From Methanolobus sp. ZRKC5 (GTDB lineage: Archaea > Halobacteriota > Methanosarcinia > Methanosarcinales > Methanosarcinaceae), in assembly GCF_038446525.1 (NCBI RefSeq), contig NZ_CP151792.1, positions 930,001 through 994,000 on the forward strand: 64,000 nt of DNA. The letters run 5' to 3'. Below the pieces are notes generated by a model. It saw only the letters and a program-made list of their open reading frames with translations, ran no database searches and was not told where the DNA came from. The position numbers were made by a program, and so were the translations under genes. Below, in pieces: positions 7,901 to 16,377 of this stretch. How positions within the stretch are numbered: position 1 is the first letter of the stretch; the number at the start of each line of letters is the position of its first letter.

Positions 7901-9019
7901 ATGAACCCTATTATTCCGAGTGATATTATTGAACGTGCCTATAAAGGCAAGATCACAAAAGAAGATGCACTTTTTCTTTTGACGATCCCTCCGTTCAAAC
8001 TTTTTGAATTTGCTGACAGGTTACGGCAGGAAACAGTAGGTGATACTGTTACCTACGTAGTCAACCGCAATATAAACTTTACAAACCGATGTATTGGAAC
8101 CTGTGGTTTCTGCGCATTCAAAGACAATACAGGATATGTATTGGAGATCCCACAAATACTTGAAAAAGTAAGAGAAGCAGAAAACCTTGGAGCAACAGAG
8201 GTTTGTATCCAGGGAGGATTGCTTCCAAATGTCGACATCAATTTTTACACAGATATAATAAGGGCGGTTAAAACAGAATACCCACACATCCATACACATG
8301 CATTCTCACCTATGGAAGTGTATCATGCTGCAAAACAGAGTGACATAACTGTTGAAGAAGCCCTCATGCACCTTAAAGATGCAGGACTGGATACCATGCC
8401 GGGAACTGCGGCGGAGATTCTGTCTGACAGAGTCAGAGATATAATCTGCCCAGGGAAACTCAAGACTGACGAATGGATGGATGTAATCACCAAAGCCCAC
8501 AAAGCAGGAATAAACACAACTGCAACCATTATGTATGGTCACATCGAAACGATCGAAGAGCGTATTGACCACATGATGATAATAAGAGATATACAGAAAA
8601 AGACAGGTGGCTTCCATGAATTCGTGCCATTGACCTTTATGCCCTACAATAACAAAGTGGGTGATGAAATGATAAAGGCCGGAAGGTATGCGACCCCTGG
8701 CATGGAAGATCTGAGATTATATGCCCTTGCACGCATAATACTTAATACACACATAGGGAACATCCAGGCAAGCTGGGTCAAGCTCGGAAAGAAACTTGCC
8801 CAGGTAGCCTTATTCTGTGGTGTTAATGACCTTGGAGGAACCCTGATGGAAGAAAAAATATCAAGTTCAGCCGGTTCAACAAATGGTCAATTCATGTCCG
8901 CACAGGAATTGGAATGGTTCATCGTTTCATCAGGAAGGCAGGCACTTCAAAGAAATACCTCATATAAACCAATCATCAATGCCAGCAACCATGAACAGAT
9001 GAAACTCAAGGTCGCCTGA
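7901..9019 (+). CDS. cofH: Fo synthase subunit CofH, first copy (5-amino-6-ribitylaminouracil-tyrosine hydroxyphenyl transferase)
   Basis: Radical SAM enzyme that couples a 4-hydroxybenzyl radical from tyrosine to 5-amino-6-(ribitylamino)uracil, the first step of Fo synthesis. The 372 residues have CIGTCGFC (cysteines 64, 68, 71), the typical [11 protein letters not shown] lead-in, and [19 protein letters not shown] near the C-terminus. The next gene is a paralogue of similar length; the two are colinear throughout. Two CofH proteins are known from Methanosarcina genomes. Confidence 0.95.
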
Positions 9020-9026
9020 GGAAACA

Positions 9027-10106
9027 ATGTATTCTACCATTACAGACGATATTATCGAAAGGGCATACAACGGTGATATTCGCAAAGAAGATGCGATGAC
9101 ATTGCTAGATTCAAGCCCTTTTGAACTTTTTTCCCTTGCAGATGACTTGCGCTACAAAACAGTGGGAAACGATGTCACATACATCACTAACCGCAATATA
9201 TACCTCACAAATATGTGTGCAGGAAATTGTGGTTTTTGTGCATTTAAGGAAAAAGAAGGATACATCCTTTCAACTGATAAAGTGCTCGAAGAAGTTGAAA
9301 GGGCACATAGTGCAGGAGCTATAGAGGTTTGTGTCCAGGGAGGATATATCCCACAACTCAACATGGATTATTATACTGAGATCTTTGATGCTATTAGTTC
9401 CAATTATCCTTCAATGAACATACATGCCCTTTCACCGATGGAAGTATTCCATGCTGCAAGAATGGAGAAAATACCAGTTGGTGAAGCTTTCAGTATTTTG
9501 AAAGAATGTGGAGTAGGTACATTGACGGGAACGTCTGCTGAGATACTTGCAGACCGCGTAAGGAAGATAATTTGCCCAACCAAAATTACAAAACAACAGT
9601 GGATAGACACAATTAAAGCTTCACATAATGCAGGCCTTCGGACAAACGCAACCATGATGTACGGACACGTGGAAACTGCTGAGGAAAGAATAGACCACAT
9701 CTTCACTATCCAGAATATGCAGAAACTTACCGGCGGATTCACCGAATTCATCCCCATGGCCTTTATGCCATACAACAACAGGATAGGAGAAGAAATGATG
9801 CAAGAAGGTAAGTTCATGACCACGGGTATTGCTGACCTCCAATTGCAGGCCATTTCAAGAATAATATTGTACAAGCATATTGATAATATTCAGGCACCGT
9901 GGGTGAAACTTGGAAAGAAGTTAGCACAGGTTGCATTGTCCTGTGGAGCTAATGACCTTGGTGGTACTCTTATGGAAGATAAGATCACAGTTGCTTCCGG
10001 AGGAACTAACGGAGAATATACCCCGGCGGCCGAAATAGAGTGGTTGATTCGCCAAACAGGTAGAACGCCAAAACAAAGAAATGCACTTTACGAGGCAGTA
10101 TTATGA
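9027..10106 (+). CDS. cofH: Fo synthase subunit CofH, second copy
   Basis: 359-residue paralogue of the preceding gene, 8 nt downstream. It has CAGNCGFC (cysteines 64, 68, 71), TNRNIYLTNMC, HALSPMEVFHAARME and [19 protein letters not shown]. Alignment by eye shows the same order of motifs and no internal gap, so both copies look intact. Whether they differ in substrate or act as alternatives is not known. The stop overlaps the cofC start (ATGA). Confidence 0.94.
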   Translation: MYSTITDDIIERAYNGDIRKEDAMTLLDSSPFELFSLADDLRYKTVGNDVTYITNRNIYLTNMCAGNCGFCAFKEKEGYILSTDKVLEEVERAHSAGAIEVCVQGGYIPQLNMDYYTEIFDAISSNYPSMNIHALSPMEVFHAARMEKIPVGEAFSILKECGVGTLTGTSAEILADRVRKIICPTKITKQQWIDTIKASHNAGLRTNATMMYGHVETAEERIDHIFTIQNMQKLTGGFTEFIPMAFMPYNNRIGEEMMQEGKFMTTGIADLQLQAISRIILYKHIDNIQAPWVKLGKKLAQVALSCGANDLGGTLMEDKITVASGGTNGEYTPAAEIEWLIRQTGRTPKQRNALYEAVL

Positions 10107-12361: not shown

Positions 12362-13141
12362 ATGGATAAAAGAAAACTTACAATTTCTGAAATCGAAGAA
12401 ATGGAATACTACGATTTCATGAGCTATATAGGAGTTCCTTATTTCAATATTGGTGGACCCCTTTCAACTGAAGAACTTGCAGGATTATGCCACATCAATA
12501 AAAGTAGCATAGTATTGATGGTAGGATGCGGGAGCGGATTTAGCGCCTGTCATCTGGCAAAGACAATGGGATGTTTTGTGCTTGGAGTAGACATCGCCAG
12601 CCTCCCAGTAGAACATGCACGACAGAGAGCCGTTGAGGAAAATATTGAAAACCTGACGGATTTCATTACAGGTGATGCTTATAATCTTCCTTTCATGGGA
12701 AATTCCTTTGACATCGTGATAACCGAATTTGTTTCTCAATTCCTTGACAAGAAGAGAGCTTTCACCGAATTTAGGCGTGTGCTTAAAGCAGGAGGATATG
12801 CAGGCATTAATGAATTGTACAGGGACGATAATATAGAACCCTACCTTAAAGCGAAGATAGATAAAGCGGAGACTATTTTTACAGAAGTAACTGGATTGCC
12901 TTTTTCAATGGAAACGCCGGGAGCATGGCAACATTACTTTGAAAAAACAGAATTTACAGATATAAGAATACATCAGCATAAGCCATTTCAGGGTTTTAAG
13001 GATATGTTTGTTACTTTTAAGGCCATGGGAGGCTTTTTGAACACCGCAGGTATAATGTTGAAGATGCTAATATTTGCGATATCGAGCAAAAAAATCAGAA
13101 GAAGTTTTTCAAAACTCGATAAAGGAAAAAGGGCTCTGTAG
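12362..13141 (+). CDS. Class I SAM-dependent methyltransferase, C-terminus cut by IS insertion
   Basis: 259 residues as it stands. Motif I is [16 protein letters not shown] (about 51-66), then [20 protein letters not shown] and [15 protein letters not shown], as in ubiquinone/menaquinone-type methyltransferases. The substrate is unknown. The last codons and the TAG stop (13139-13141) come from the terminal inverted repeat of an insertion element that starts at 13132. If the element and one copy of the 8-bp duplication are removed, the frame continues for about 20 more codons to TAA at 16375-16377. The native protein was thus about 281 residues; the truncated form lacks only the tail and may still fold. 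Confidence 0.88.
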
Positions 13142-13238
13142 AAATCCTCATTTGAATAATAAAAATAACCTTGACATACCTGTCAAGGTTATGGACTAAT
13201 ATCTTGAATTTGACTTCTTTCACTTGATTCCAATACTT
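13095..13238 (-). CDS. IS5-like transposase, 3' exon (downstream of the group II intron)
   Basis: After the predicted intron end at 13239, the minus strand reads [20 protein letters not shown] and [14 protein letters not shown], which is the expected C-terminal helical region of the transposase encoded at 15403-16188. No in-frame stop occurs inside the element; the frame crosses the terminal repeat into flanking methyltransferase DNA and stops at 13095-13097. Splicing would join it in frame to the 5' exon to give about 309 residues. Confidence 0.8.
13124..13148 (+). repeat. Left target duplication and terminal inverted repeat of the IS5-like element
   Basis: The 8-bp target duplication GGAAAAAG occupies 13124-13131 and recurs at 16297-16304. 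The element then starts at 13132 with GGCTCTGTAGAAATCCT, whose first 13 bases match the inverse of the right end exactly, with 16 of 17 matching overall. Confidence 0.9.
13165..13192. repeat. Perfect 12-bp inverted repeat in the IS end
   Basis: ATAACCTTGACA and its exact complement are separated by 4 nt (TACC), about 33 bp inside the left end of the IS5-like element and within the transposase 3' exon (codons for NLDRYVKVI). It would form a strong hairpin in DNA or RNA of either strand. Confidence 0.75.
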
Positions 13239-13279
13239 GTCGAATAAGAAAAAGCGATTACTCGCCCTCCCTCTTCTAA

Positions 13280-13313
13280 GAACCGTACGTGAAAATTTCT
13301 CTTCATACGGCTC
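13280..13313 (-). ncRNA. Group II intron domain V
   Basis: The 34-nt minus-strand segment starts GAGCCGTA and ends TACGGTTC, which pair. It contains the AGC catalytic triad, and an upper stem (TGAAGA with TTTTCA) capped by a GAAA tetraloop. This is the canonical domain V fold and shows the ribozyme core is intact at this end. Confidence 0.92.
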
Positions 13314-13337
13314 AAGCATTCTATAACCCTTTAAGTA

Positions 13338-14852
13338 TCAGGCAGTTGTTAGACTTTCCATGATATTTTGCTTCGACGCCACTAGTTTCTGTTTTCTCAG
13401 ATAGCTTATTCTCCATTTAAAGTATTCTTTGTCTACATATGGGTTCTTATCCATTTTTATGCGTGGATGTCTTACAATCTTTGTATGTGCAAAAGATTTG
13501 AGTTTAAGCCCTTCTGTGGAGAATACCCATTTCCTTGACCCTACCCTATGCCAATATCTATCTACTATCCAGTGGTGTGATTTATCTGGATGCCGCCTTT
13601 TAGCCCACGTCCATAGCATATCCCATAATCTGGAATCAAGCTTACTGAACGTATTTTTAGAGACAACTGAACGGTGATATTCGCTCCATCCAGTGATAAT
13701 AGGGTTGAGTTCCTTAATGAGAGAACTCTGAGACCGAGCTTTACCTTTCTTAATCACGTTGCTAATGCTTTTTGTGATATTCTCAATAGATTTGTTCGAG
13801 GGCTTGGTTAGAAGTTTACCATTATATTTCCGGAAATTCCATCCCAAGAAGTCAAATCCATCGTCTATGTGTGAAACAAGAGTTTTCTCACGAGATAGTT
13901 CTAAACCCCTATCTTTCAAGAATAGTCTGATAACCTCAGCAATATCTTTAGCCACTTCCTCTGAATCAGCAGTGACGATAAAGTCATCTGCGTATCTCAC
14001 AAAATTGACTTTATGGGAATTATAACTTTTTTTGTTAATAGTTCCCTTCCTGTTTGTATGATATTTGCATGCTATTGCATTTTTCATACCGTCCAATGTG
14101 ATGTTTGCCAGTACTGGAGATATTATTCCACCTTGAGCAGTACCTGCTTTGGTGGGATTCAGATGTCTATTATACACAAAACCAGCTTTAAGGAATTGCT
14201 TTAGTATTGACCGGTCCATAGGAATATTGTTCAAGAGCCATTCGTGATTTATATGATCAAAGCATCCTTTTATGTCGCCTTCCAAAATCCATTGAGCAGA
14301 GTTTCTTTTACTCAGACATGCGAACAATTGAGCTTCTGCATCTTTTGAACTTCGATATTTACGGAATCCAAATGATGTTCTGTCTGCTGTGGTTTCTGCT
14401 ATTGGGCTTAAAGCAAAAGCATATAATGCCTGCATTGCTCTATCGTACATTGTAGGAATGCTTAATGGTCGTTTTTTCTTCTTTCCTTGTTTCTCAATAT
14501 AGATTCTTCTCAATGGTTTAGCTTTGTAGCTCTTACCAGACAGTTCTAGAACGGCTTTCATCTTAGATTTGGATGTTGTCCATTTTTCTCCATCGATTCC
14601 AGCTGTTCTTTTACCTTTGTTCTGTGTTACTTTCTTTACTGCCAATAATTTGGCATGAAAAGAATTGGTAAGCAGGTATTGTAGTCGTTTAACTAAATGC
14701 CACTTCTTTTGTCTAACCGCTTTTACAATTCGGGCTTGCAGCTCATTAACGTTCCCTTCGACTGTTTTCCAGTCGATGTCCTCCCACTTGAATGGGATTG
14801 AATTGTCTGCAAGCCTCTCACCTGATGGTGTAGTCGAGTATCTTGCATTCAT
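13338..14852 (-). CDS. ltrA: Group II intron reverse transcriptase/maturase
   Basis: 504 residues if started at the ATG at 14852, which follows an AGGAGG site at good spacing; an upstream start at 14882 would add 10 residues. It has the reverse transcriptase blocks, including GIDGEKW, LEGDIKGCFDHINHEWLL, GTAQGGIISPVLANI and the intact active site FVRYADDFIV. The maturase X domain follows (GWSEYHRSVVSKNTFSKLD and SHHWIVDRYW). I see no C-terminal HNH endonuclease, so retrohoming may depend on nascent-strand priming. It should be catalytically competent. Confidence 0.95.
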   Translation of the reverse strand: MNARYSTTPSGERLADNSIPFKWEDIDWKTVEGNVNELQARIVKAVRQKKWHLVKRLQYLLTNSFHAKLLAVKKVTQNKGKRTAGIDGEKWTTSKSKMKAVLELSGKSYKAKPLRRIYIEKQGKKKKRPLSIPTMYDRAMQALYAFALSPIAETTADRTSFGFRKYRSSKDAEAQLFACLSKRNSAQWILEGDIKGCFDHINHEWLLNNIPMDRSILKQFLKAGFVYNRHLNPTKAGTAQGGIISPVLANITLDGMKNAIACKYHTNRKGTINKKSYNSHKVNFVRYADDFIVTADSEEVAKDIAEVIRLFLKDRGLELSREKTLVSHIDDGFDFLGWNFRKYNGKLLTKPSNKSIENITKSISNVIKKGKARSQSSLIKELNPIITGWSEYHRSVVSKNTFSKLDSRLWDMLWTWAKRRHPDKSHHWIVDRYWHRVGSRKWVFSTEGLKLKSFAHTKIVRHPRIKMDKNPYVDKEYFKWRISYLRKQKLVASKQNIMESLTTA

Positions 14853-15402
14853 AAGTTTGCCTCCTTTCATGTAATAGAACACCTACGGTAAGTCTGCTCC
14901 CTTTCGGGACAAGGCAAATTTTGAACCTCTATGCACTCCATTACAGACTGCCATTTGCTTTCTACCGTTTCCTTTATCCCCTGTGCTATTGTTCATTCTC
15001 ACGAATTAACTACCTTTTTTTTTTTTTTACAGGAGCACATGGGACTTACCAAGTTCTATAATATGAATAATCACGGAAACCTTAGAAGCCATCTATAGGC
15101 CGGGAATCTGTGTCCATTCTCCATAATGTGCAAAAAACCATTATGGCCTGATTCCATACCTTTTGGTCTAAGCGTATCATTCCATTTCGCTTATCAATCA
15201 TAACGACCCTTACGATGATTTGCATTATACTCTTCATAGTTTCCTTATCCTAGCAGATAGTCAAGGATTGGAATTCCTTGCTTTCCACATTGTCCTGTGA
15301 GCTTAACACAATGATGTTACCATTCTATGCATCCCACAGTAGGATTATCCCGAATGGAAGGAATAGCTGTTAAGCAATTCATATTGTAACTTCTTGTCAC
15401 AC

Positions 15403-16188
15403 TTTAGCCCTGATATCTTCACTATATTTTCTTTTCAAAACAGAAAACATCGTTTCTACCAAATTTCTGTTATGATACAATGCTTTGTCAAATTCCCATA
15501 CCATTTTTTTGCGATATTTGCCTCTGATTCTCTTCCTTTTTCTTTGTCTCAAAGGAATCATAGCTATCGAATCTAGTTGCTCTCTTGTTAGTGAATGTAT
15601 GTCTTCTGAATCGTAACCTTTGTCCATCACATAGTACTTTGATTTGCGAGTTTTATGGCATTGCTTCAGTAATTTCATTGCATGTTTTGCATCATGCACA
15701 GGTTTACCTGATATTTTAAAACCAGTGACAATGAACTTTGCAGTATCAATAGAGATACTTGTTTTCAGGAAAGATCTTCGTTTCTTTCCTGTTCTCCAGG
15801 AATAATAGTAACTACAGTGGCCACTAGTAAACCCACTTGAATCAATAGCAGTAATCTCTATCTGCTCTCCGCGTGAATAGAATAGTTTTAGTGTTTGCTG
15901 CAATAATCCAGTGAAGTAGATAGATTTAATTCTTGTAATGAATTTATGCAGTGTAGTAAAATGTGGAACTTCTTTTAATCCAATTCTTGCTTTAACTTTA
16001 TCCATCACTTCTACAAGTTCAACAATATCTCTATAATCTTCATCAAGATATTCTTTTAACAAAACCAATGTCAATAGCTGGTGTTGGGTATATTTTCTTT
16101 TAGAATATTTACAACTATAAATCTGAAGGTGTGAGTTTCCTGATACAGCTAGCGCTGTATCAACAAACTTTAAGTACTTGTTAGGCAA
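15403..16188 (-). CDS. IS5-like transposase, 5' exon
   Basis: 262 codons up to the predicted splice site (the unspliced frame reads one more valine and stops at 15397). DDE catalytic residues are visible: [11 protein letters not shown] (first D), [14 protein letters not shown] (second D) and [14 protein letters not shown] (E), so all three lie in this exon. The start is a TTG at 16188; no ATG is in frame upstream. The missing C-terminus is encoded by 13238-13095. Confidence 0.88.
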
Positions 16189-16279
16189 AACACAATCATC
16201 CCCTTTTGTGTTTCTATCGCAAGTAATAATCAGGGGATTTATCCTTTTTAAATTATTATGCTAAAATAAAATGTGAAGT

Positions 16280-16304
16280 AGGTTTTCTACAGAGCCGGAA
16301 AAAG
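16280..16304 (+). repeat. Right terminal inverted repeat and target duplication of the IS5-like element
   Basis: The element ends TTTCTACAGAGCC at 16296, the inverse of its left end, followed by the second copy of the 8-bp duplication GGAAAAAG at 16297-16304. Confidence 0.9.
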
Positions 16305-16377
16305 AATACTTTTTAACAGCAGAAAGACAAAAAAACATGTAGGTTACATACTTGGAACCGCAAGGAAGCCATATTAA
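16297..16377 (+). pseudogene. Detached 3' end of the methyltransferase gene
   Basis: Read in the frame that the methyltransferase would have without the insertion, this segment gives GKRILFNSRKTKKHVGYILG and then TARKPY followed by TAA. The frame is open and ends with a basic tail typical of such enzymes. It now lacks a promoter and start codon of its own and ends 12 nt before the stop of the convergent trkH gene. Confidence 0.75.

Follow-up and report, generated by a model that had tools for sequence, protein, structure and literature searches.

A group II intron nested in an IS5-family element that interrupts a methyltransferase gene of the archaeon Methanolobus sp. ZRKC5

In the RmInt1 system, a group II intron is located inside the transposase gene of an insertion sequence (IS), and transposition of the IS depends on splicing (PMC4238363; PMC5894124). 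In archaea, the commonest intron class is CL1A (PMC8919778). Here we describe a locus in a 64,000-nucleotide stretch of DNA (the window, positions 930001-994000 of the single-contig, 3,053,834-base genome of Methanolobus sp. ZRKC5) in which a group II intron is nested within an IS5-family element that is itself nested within a methyltransferase gene. This three-layer nest was proposed in an initial annotation of the sequence, and each element that it named (repeats, duplication, intron reverse transcriptase and restored frame) was located. Coordinates refer to the window unless a locus or genome is named.

We interpret the locus, with a probability of about 0.87, as the product of a mobile group II intron that homes to one site in an IS5 transposase gene and that also rides with the IS. 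Element ends, reading frames, duplications, identities between copies and the pairing of the intron with its target are read directly from the sequence; from these we infer splicing in the cell, homing as the route of copying and co-transposition of IS and intron.

Architecture of the composite element

The intron splits the transposase gene in the sense orientation, after residue 262, and its removal leaves an open frame (Table 1). Its termini, GTGTG and AC, agree with the 5' GUGYG and 3' AY ends of group II introns. Within it are a reverse transcriptase with a maturase domain (TIGR04416, PF08388) and conserved intron RNA, with the RF00029 and RF02012 models both exceeding their gathering scores; the predicted fold of 13236-13330 has a z score of -3.85. 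The initial annotation was thus correct in placing a reverse transcriptase intron within the IS, as both the reading frame and the match to domains V and VI lie inside it. An HNH endonuclease segment (C..C..HH..H..C) was not seen by eye in the C-termini of the window protein or those of the related loci L064, L094 and L095; L101 and L103 have the segment.

Without the intron the IS is 1,001 bp long. Both the transposase family and the combination of inverted repeats with a short duplication identify it as an IS5-family member. The inverted repeats agree over 13 bp, and position 16296, given for one of them in the initial annotation, is the final base of the right-hand repeat. The flanking 8-bp duplication is exact on both sides as annotated; at local composition, eight given bases would match by chance with a probability of about 2e-5. 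Exact 8-bp duplications flank four of the five copies in this genome that have both ends: the window (GGAAAAAG), L010 (CAAAACAT), L011 (AAATCTTG) and L015 (AGGATAAT). The exception is L016, which has none.

Table 1 Features of the nested locus (window coordinates)
Feature	Position	Strand	Evidence and remarks
IS5-family element including intron	13132..16296	-	NF033579 transpos_IS5_2, 199.7 bits (cut-off 140); second copy identical over IS
Terminal inverted repeat, transposase 3' side	13132..13144	+	GGCTCTGTAGAAA
Terminal inverted repeat, transposase 5' side	16284..16296	-	GGCTCTGTAGAAA
Target-site duplication, left copy	13124..13131	.	GGAAAAAG
Target-site duplication, right copy	16297..16304	.	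GGAAAAAG
Transposase exon 1	15403..16188	-	262 codons; TTG taken as start
Transposase exon 2 within IS	13132..13238	-	Frame continues past IS end to stop in host DNA, 13095-13097
Group II intron, 2,164 nt	13239..15402	-	5' GTGTG, 3' AC; ends defined from six copies together with the empty sites of L015 and L016
Reverse transcriptase/maturase, intron-encoded, 514 aa	13338..14882	-	TIGR04416 350.3 bits (cut-off 300); PF13655; PF00078; PF08388 83.4 (cut-off 23)
Intron domains V and VI	13239..13315	-	RF00029, 63 bits (gathering 40)
Intron 5' part, group-II-D1D4-7	15204..15365	-	RF02012, 54.6 bits (gathering 34)
Exon-binding site 1 (EBS1), TTTTGC	15130..15135	-	Intron positions 268-273; column pairing across 15 aligned introns
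Intron-binding site 1 (IBS1), GCTAAA	15403..15408	-	5/6 pairs with EBS1; commoner GCAAAA 6/6
Methyltransferase gene, 5' part	12362..13141	+	PF08241, 75.3 bits (cut-off 21.2); frame and stop
Methyltransferase 3' end, detached	16305..16377	+	23 residues, ILFNSRKTKKHVGYILGTARKPY; TAA 16375-16377; flank join and homologue alignment

The transposase frame is free of stops up to the IS end in the window, L010, L014, L015 and L016, and exon 2 of L011 likewise has none. All 11 of the intron-free copies read in other species (L068-L078 and L093 listed) keep the frame open beyond a STEP-like motif, which coincides with the IS end in the window genome, where the ends were mapped. The transposase tail is encoded by host DNA and varies from insertion to insertion. 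We take the DDE glutamate to lie in the 12-residue stretch upstream of the intron site. Within exon 2, two 12-bp arms form a perfect inverted repeat around a loop of 4 nt (13165-13192). Elements resembling miniature inverted-repeat transposable elements, with the same terminal repeats as the IS, occur at L010:4543-4668 (126 bp) and L023:1436-1567 (132 bp); the latter has CTATTTCC on either side and 11 matches in the genome, including itself, at 69-100% identity.

Recent spread of the intron among diverged copies

We searched the whole genome with transposase exon 1 (E 0.001 or better). Nine of the 11 places matched fall in seven IS loci; of the other two, one is a short fragment and one a distant relative. 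Counting L014, which is without exon 1, there are eight IS loci. The intron of the window is present in six of these (window and L010-L014). At L015 and L016 its site is empty, with the junction reading AAA|AAG at the intron position; L015 carries a second intron and L016 two other insertions. When introns are left out the transposase frame is open at three of the eight loci (window, L010 and L015), all of them intron-bearing. Of the remainder, L011 is interrupted by a single stop, exon 2 is now missing from L012, only fragments are present at L013 and L014, and L016 is broken. The search for intron-free IS copies that the initial annotation had suggested therefore returned no uninterrupted transposase copy among the eight loci.

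The copies of the intron are 99.95-100% identical to one another. The window copy is set apart by one base of domain VI (intron position 2151, T instead of C), the other five being identical; in the predicted fold of the window form the domain VI stem still closes. The IS sequences around these introns are much more diverged: identity to the window in exon 1 is 86.6% for L011, 85.4% for L012 and 86.7% for L013 (105 nt), and in exon 2 it is 89.6% for L011 and 89.5% for L014. The identity level shifts at the intron ends, as would be expected had the intron recently entered targets that were already diverged; the exception is L010, which is the same as the window throughout the IS. An identical intron adjoined by IS sequence that is only 85-90% identical (L011-L014) points to a recent spread of the intron, most likely by homing. 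A dead nest, with intron and IS both immobile relics and the identity of copies due to recent segmental duplication, would be in line with the breakage of five of the eight IS loci by a stop, truncation or other insertions. We consider this very improbable, given that the reverse transcriptase is intact and identical in all six copies, that the flanks of the copies differ and that the IS copies with both ends, L016 excepted, have exact duplications of their own.

The pairing between intron and target is consistent with homing. Across 15 introns of the lineage, from this genome and others, the EBS1 column pairs with its own 5' exon at a mean of 5.47 of six positions (range 4-6). With swapped partners the mean is 2.64 of six, shifting the column by 1 to 8 positions yields no more than 3.2, and none of 20,000 shuffles reached the observed value. 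EBS1 and its targets have thus changed in concert across intron lineages. In this genome, EBS1 and IBS1 form six of six pairs at L011-L013, and also at L014 with one G-U, and five of six in the window and L010, where a change from GCA to GCT leaves the alanine unchanged and removes one pair. IBS1 is GCAAAA in L011, L012, L013 and both empty sites. Among the intron-free copies of other species with a readable site (n = 13), six have GCAAAA, seven have other forms (for example, GCCAGG) and none has GCTAAA; in 16 further loci scanned for the site none was located.

In the filled and empty copies diverged exon blocks end at intron sites, and copying of the intron may therefore have carried exon sequence with it. 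Between the window and L015 there are 47 aligned IS differences, all at 571-892 (exon 1) and none in exon 2. Between the window and L016 there are 37, with 11 before 571, 26 at 571-892 and, again, none in exon 2. At the second intron, the block by which L015 differs from L016 is mostly on the opposite (3') side, and we therefore do not claim a single mechanism of exon co-conversion. This second group II intron (L015:2827-5042) is 76% identical to the first and splits the transposase of this IS group behind residue 191; the frame is otherwise open.

Two of the loci have foreign flanks. L012 consists of IS exon 1 followed by a foreign 3' flank and L014 of IS exon 2 preceded by a foreign 5' flank. 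Joined on the opposite strand, the two foreign flanks form one frame of 362 residues, which belongs to an ISH3-family transposase as judged by its 299-residue half; the genome also holds an intact relative, L124, whose alignment spans the junction without gaps (391 nt at 81%; 1,293 nt overall). Likewise, L012 exon 1 joined to L014 exon 2 gives a complete IS5 transposase frame. The joined ISH3 frame and the restored IS5 frame together point to an ISH3 insertion followed by an exchange of flanks. Most likely, the intron once inserted antisense into the ISH3 gene at GCGAAA|AAGTAT and then recombined with an IS5-borne intron copy, most simply through an inversion of ~26 kb. A comparable exchange has been described for Thermosynechococcus elongatus (PMC2882425). 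The ends of the reunited elements are neutral or slightly against the exchange: those of the IS5 element, GAAATAAC and GAAAGAAG, match at six of eight positions and no duplication was found at those of the ISH3 element. A synteny check with three neighbouring genes in 27 genomes of the genus, including this one (E 1e-60), matched them in 3, 24 and 13 genomes; G006 alone carries the first two on a single contig, where they are separated by 98 kb and oriented in a way that agrees neither with today's gene order nor with the one proposed for before the inversion. The L011 composite (2,774,000-2,780,000 of the genome) itself sits in another copy of an ISH3-type transposase gene.

Order of arrival and the interrupted methyltransferase gene

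In the mechanism that we propose, the intron would be spliced from the transposase RNA, rejoining ...EDIRAK|KYWNQ... into a full transposase, and the predicted spliced junction (15403|13238) would read ...GCTAAA|AAGTATTGG. The excised intron and its protein would insert into intron-free sites, where EBS1 (UUUUGC) would pair with IBS1 (GCAAAA or a variant). By this route the intron would recently have filled five IS copies and one ISH3 transposase site. An intron-bearing IS, probably already composite, would have jumped into the methyltransferase gene, making the 8-bp duplication and severing the last 23 methyltransferase codons.

The initial annotation had dated the events as methyltransferase, then IS, then intron. 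That the IS predates entry of the intron somewhere stands, but the order at this particular locus does not follow, given the second composite at L010 (genome 2,897,869-2,901,033). L010 has the same 1,001 IS bases and a duplication of its own, and its intron differs from that of the window at one of 2,164 positions. The changed recognition base is shared by the window and L010, and therefore the composite may have jumped as a unit. We regard co-transposition of IS and intron as fairly probable on these comparisons, and the simplest story is that the silent change arose in a composite that later jumped. Alternatively, an intron-free IS could have entered the methyltransferase gene first and the intron homed there later. 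The presence of the intron in diverged IS copies of this genome is in keeping with this order, and the existence of lineage introns with four or five of six EBS1 pairs implies that a mismatched site can be entered or kept. We nevertheless find it doubtful, as it calls for two homings into the same mismatched site, in the window and at L010, rather than one homing and one jump, and no intron-free copy of the window IS subtype was found in the genome.

Several points weigh against a homing intron that also rides with its IS. Splicing and transposition are both deduced from sequence, and the one EBS1 mismatch at the window site might weaken splicing. An intron-free IS could have jumped twice, to the window site and to L010, with the intron then homing into each copy. 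Concerted evolution could keep the introns identical, but would need to stop at both intron ends. Finally, the empty sites pair as well as the filled ones, with IBS1 and IBS2 forming six and five pairs at L015 and six and six at L016, as compared with 5-6 and 4-5 at filled sites; thus, whether a site is filled does not depend on pairing alone. We considered resistance of L015 and L016 through an IBS2 mismatch and dropped it, as EBS2 taken as TGATTG gives five and six of six pairs versus four to five at filled sites; the position of EBS2 was read from the alignment by eye and is less sure than that of EBS1.

The mismatch also bears on whether the intron acts as a brake, with poor splicing silencing the IS, an idea put forward for RmInt1 and ISRm2011-2. 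In its favour, the genome yielded no uninterrupted transposase copy of this group, the silent change in the window and L010 removes one EBS1-IBS1 pair, and for RmInt1 correct splicing in vivo is reported for less than 1% of exons (PMC4238363). We think such a brake unlikely here, as the window and L010 are identical over the IS, which suggests that the element jumped recently and after the silent change had arisen.

Insertion of the IS disrupted a class I S-adenosylmethionine-dependent methyltransferase gene (PF08241). The 5' part retains 257 codons of its own, followed by Ala-Leu-stop from the IS end (KGKR-AL-stop); the stop is a TAG donated by the IS, as the initial annotation had stated. 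When 13132-16304 was deleted by script the frame resumed for 23 codons up to the TAA, close to the 20 or so first estimated. The rejoined protein was aligned with eight homologues. It shares the motif T..(H/Y)VGY(I/V)L near the C-terminus with the six closest (three of the same genus at 67-71% and three more distant at 43-49%), and the detached tail is a methyltransferase C-terminus, as proposed. None of the six ends at the truncation point, so neither outcome that the initial annotation had named as refuting its reading was obtained. Of the two most distant homologues, L036 (31%) is alignable to the end with a different tail and L035 only up to residue 152. A shortened protein, which the initial annotation envisaged, could still be made, but without 23 residues that the six closest homologues conserve, and it may fail to function. 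The best matches in a PDB search span about residues 33-161 of a methyltransferase homologue and leave the lost C-terminus uncovered.

Loss of the methyltransferase is plausibly tolerated because the gene is patchy across the genus. Methyltransferase-like matches (E 0.001 or better) occur in 57 of 60 relatives, though methyltransferases are numerous; matches covering all or nearly all of the truncated protein number three within the genus (G024, G003 and G016, 67-69%), two in the family (51%) and one in the order (43%), and these are the six closest homologues. The homologue in G014 is in three pieces, two with stops, and a scan of genome contigs for the methyltransferase returned one distant locus. 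Judged by eye, the surroundings of some homologues resemble those in the window: a geranylgeranyl reductase gene lies upstream in L028, and L029 and L030 have a neighbouring TrkH-type gene. Neighbouring genes in the window are two cofH genes, cofC, the geranylgeranyl reductase gene and a TrkH-family gene with trkA. The cofH genes form a tandem pair (7901-10106), and both exceed the cut-off of the CofH model TIGR03551.

Relatives of the intron and comparison with known systems

IS relatives are common among the listed matches of 27 genomes of the same genus, and in none of these matches from other genomes was this intron seen joined to both IS arms. To place the lineage more broadly, 33 intron loci were inspected (30 plus L104, L064 and the window), some of which share a site. 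The host gene could be named by a family or transposase match at 12 loci. IS genes make up ten of these 12 hosts, a share that is biased because long-frame flanks were chosen for the family search; the remaining 21 loci gave no host name. They are IS5-type (window, L064, L094, L104 and L120, the last an antisense fragment), an IS21 transposase (L066), IstB (L101), TnpB type (L083 and L103) and IS256 type (L110). The other two hosts are a nuclease (L106) and a Rieske protein (L096). Pieces of L117 and from upstream of L094 had no match in the family search. The intron relatives L116 and L117 lie within a frame (..YAEWKKMGF.KGTLHYMKQ..) that we presume to be cas1-like, although the L117 piece matched no family. 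At L104, in G073, an intron of ~830 nt lies within an intron of the same lineage within an IS5-type transposase gene, with a stop in exon 2 (by eye); G073 has four reverse transcriptase matches (63-64%), of which L104 is the one inspected. Among plasmid records, megablast gave pMETHO01 as its single match. At the protein level there are at least 5,000 matching records, and among the ten listed all except pMETHO01 are below 56%.

We tentatively raise the possibility that this archaeal intron lineage is an IS specialist that captured the present IS group. Under such a scenario all otherwise-open IS copies would need splicing, IS and intron would jump together, and the silent change in the 5' exon would loosen the grip of the intron by one pair.

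The nest most resembles RmInt1 and RmInt2 of Sinorhizobium meliloti, which are likewise endonuclease-less group II introns that target IS transposase genes and are present in several copies (PMC4238363; PMC5894124); for the window intron the lack of an endonuclease was judged by eye. In both cases a second related intron occurs in an IS, 72% identical there and 76% here. RmInt1 and RmInt2 are bacterial class D introns in the IS630-family ISRm2011-2 and another IS, whereas here the intron is archaeal, the element belongs to the IS5 family, and both introns are in one IS group. Thus, the way of life is the same and the IS family is different.

The TeI introns of T. elongatus are similar in having EBS-defined families at different sites, in inserting into an IS or another intron, in the identity of inner introns within diverged hosts (there interpreted as recent independent insertion) and in the splitting of one gene by recombination between the flanks of two introns (PMC2882425). 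They differ in being cyanobacterial and in that many TeI sites are intergenic or within other introns. The nested group II introns of Methanosarcina acetivorans also show repeated homing and nesting (PMC4424553), but here the intron is in a transposase gene with open exons. The ltrA intron of the Methanomethylovorans hollandica plasmid pMETHO01 (NC_019972.1) is 87% identical but lies in another IS5-type transposase gene and has a different EBS1. In the partial set of archaeal group II intron literature covered (PMC8919778, PMC4424553), an intron in an IS transposase gene is not described.

What is new is the archaeal host, the lack of any uninterrupted IS copy found, and a silent change that breaks one of six intron-exon pairs. 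In its way of life the nest parallels RmInt1 in ISRm2011-2, and it looks like the archaeal counterpart of that system. It would give archaea a countable equivalent, in which the intron has spread recently, sites both filled and empty are present, and there are an apparent insertion in another place, a flank exchange and a probable joint mover. A methanogen could thus serve to test whether such an intron curbs its IS or simply travels with it, because the genome yielded no intron-free transposase of this group that might blur the outcome.

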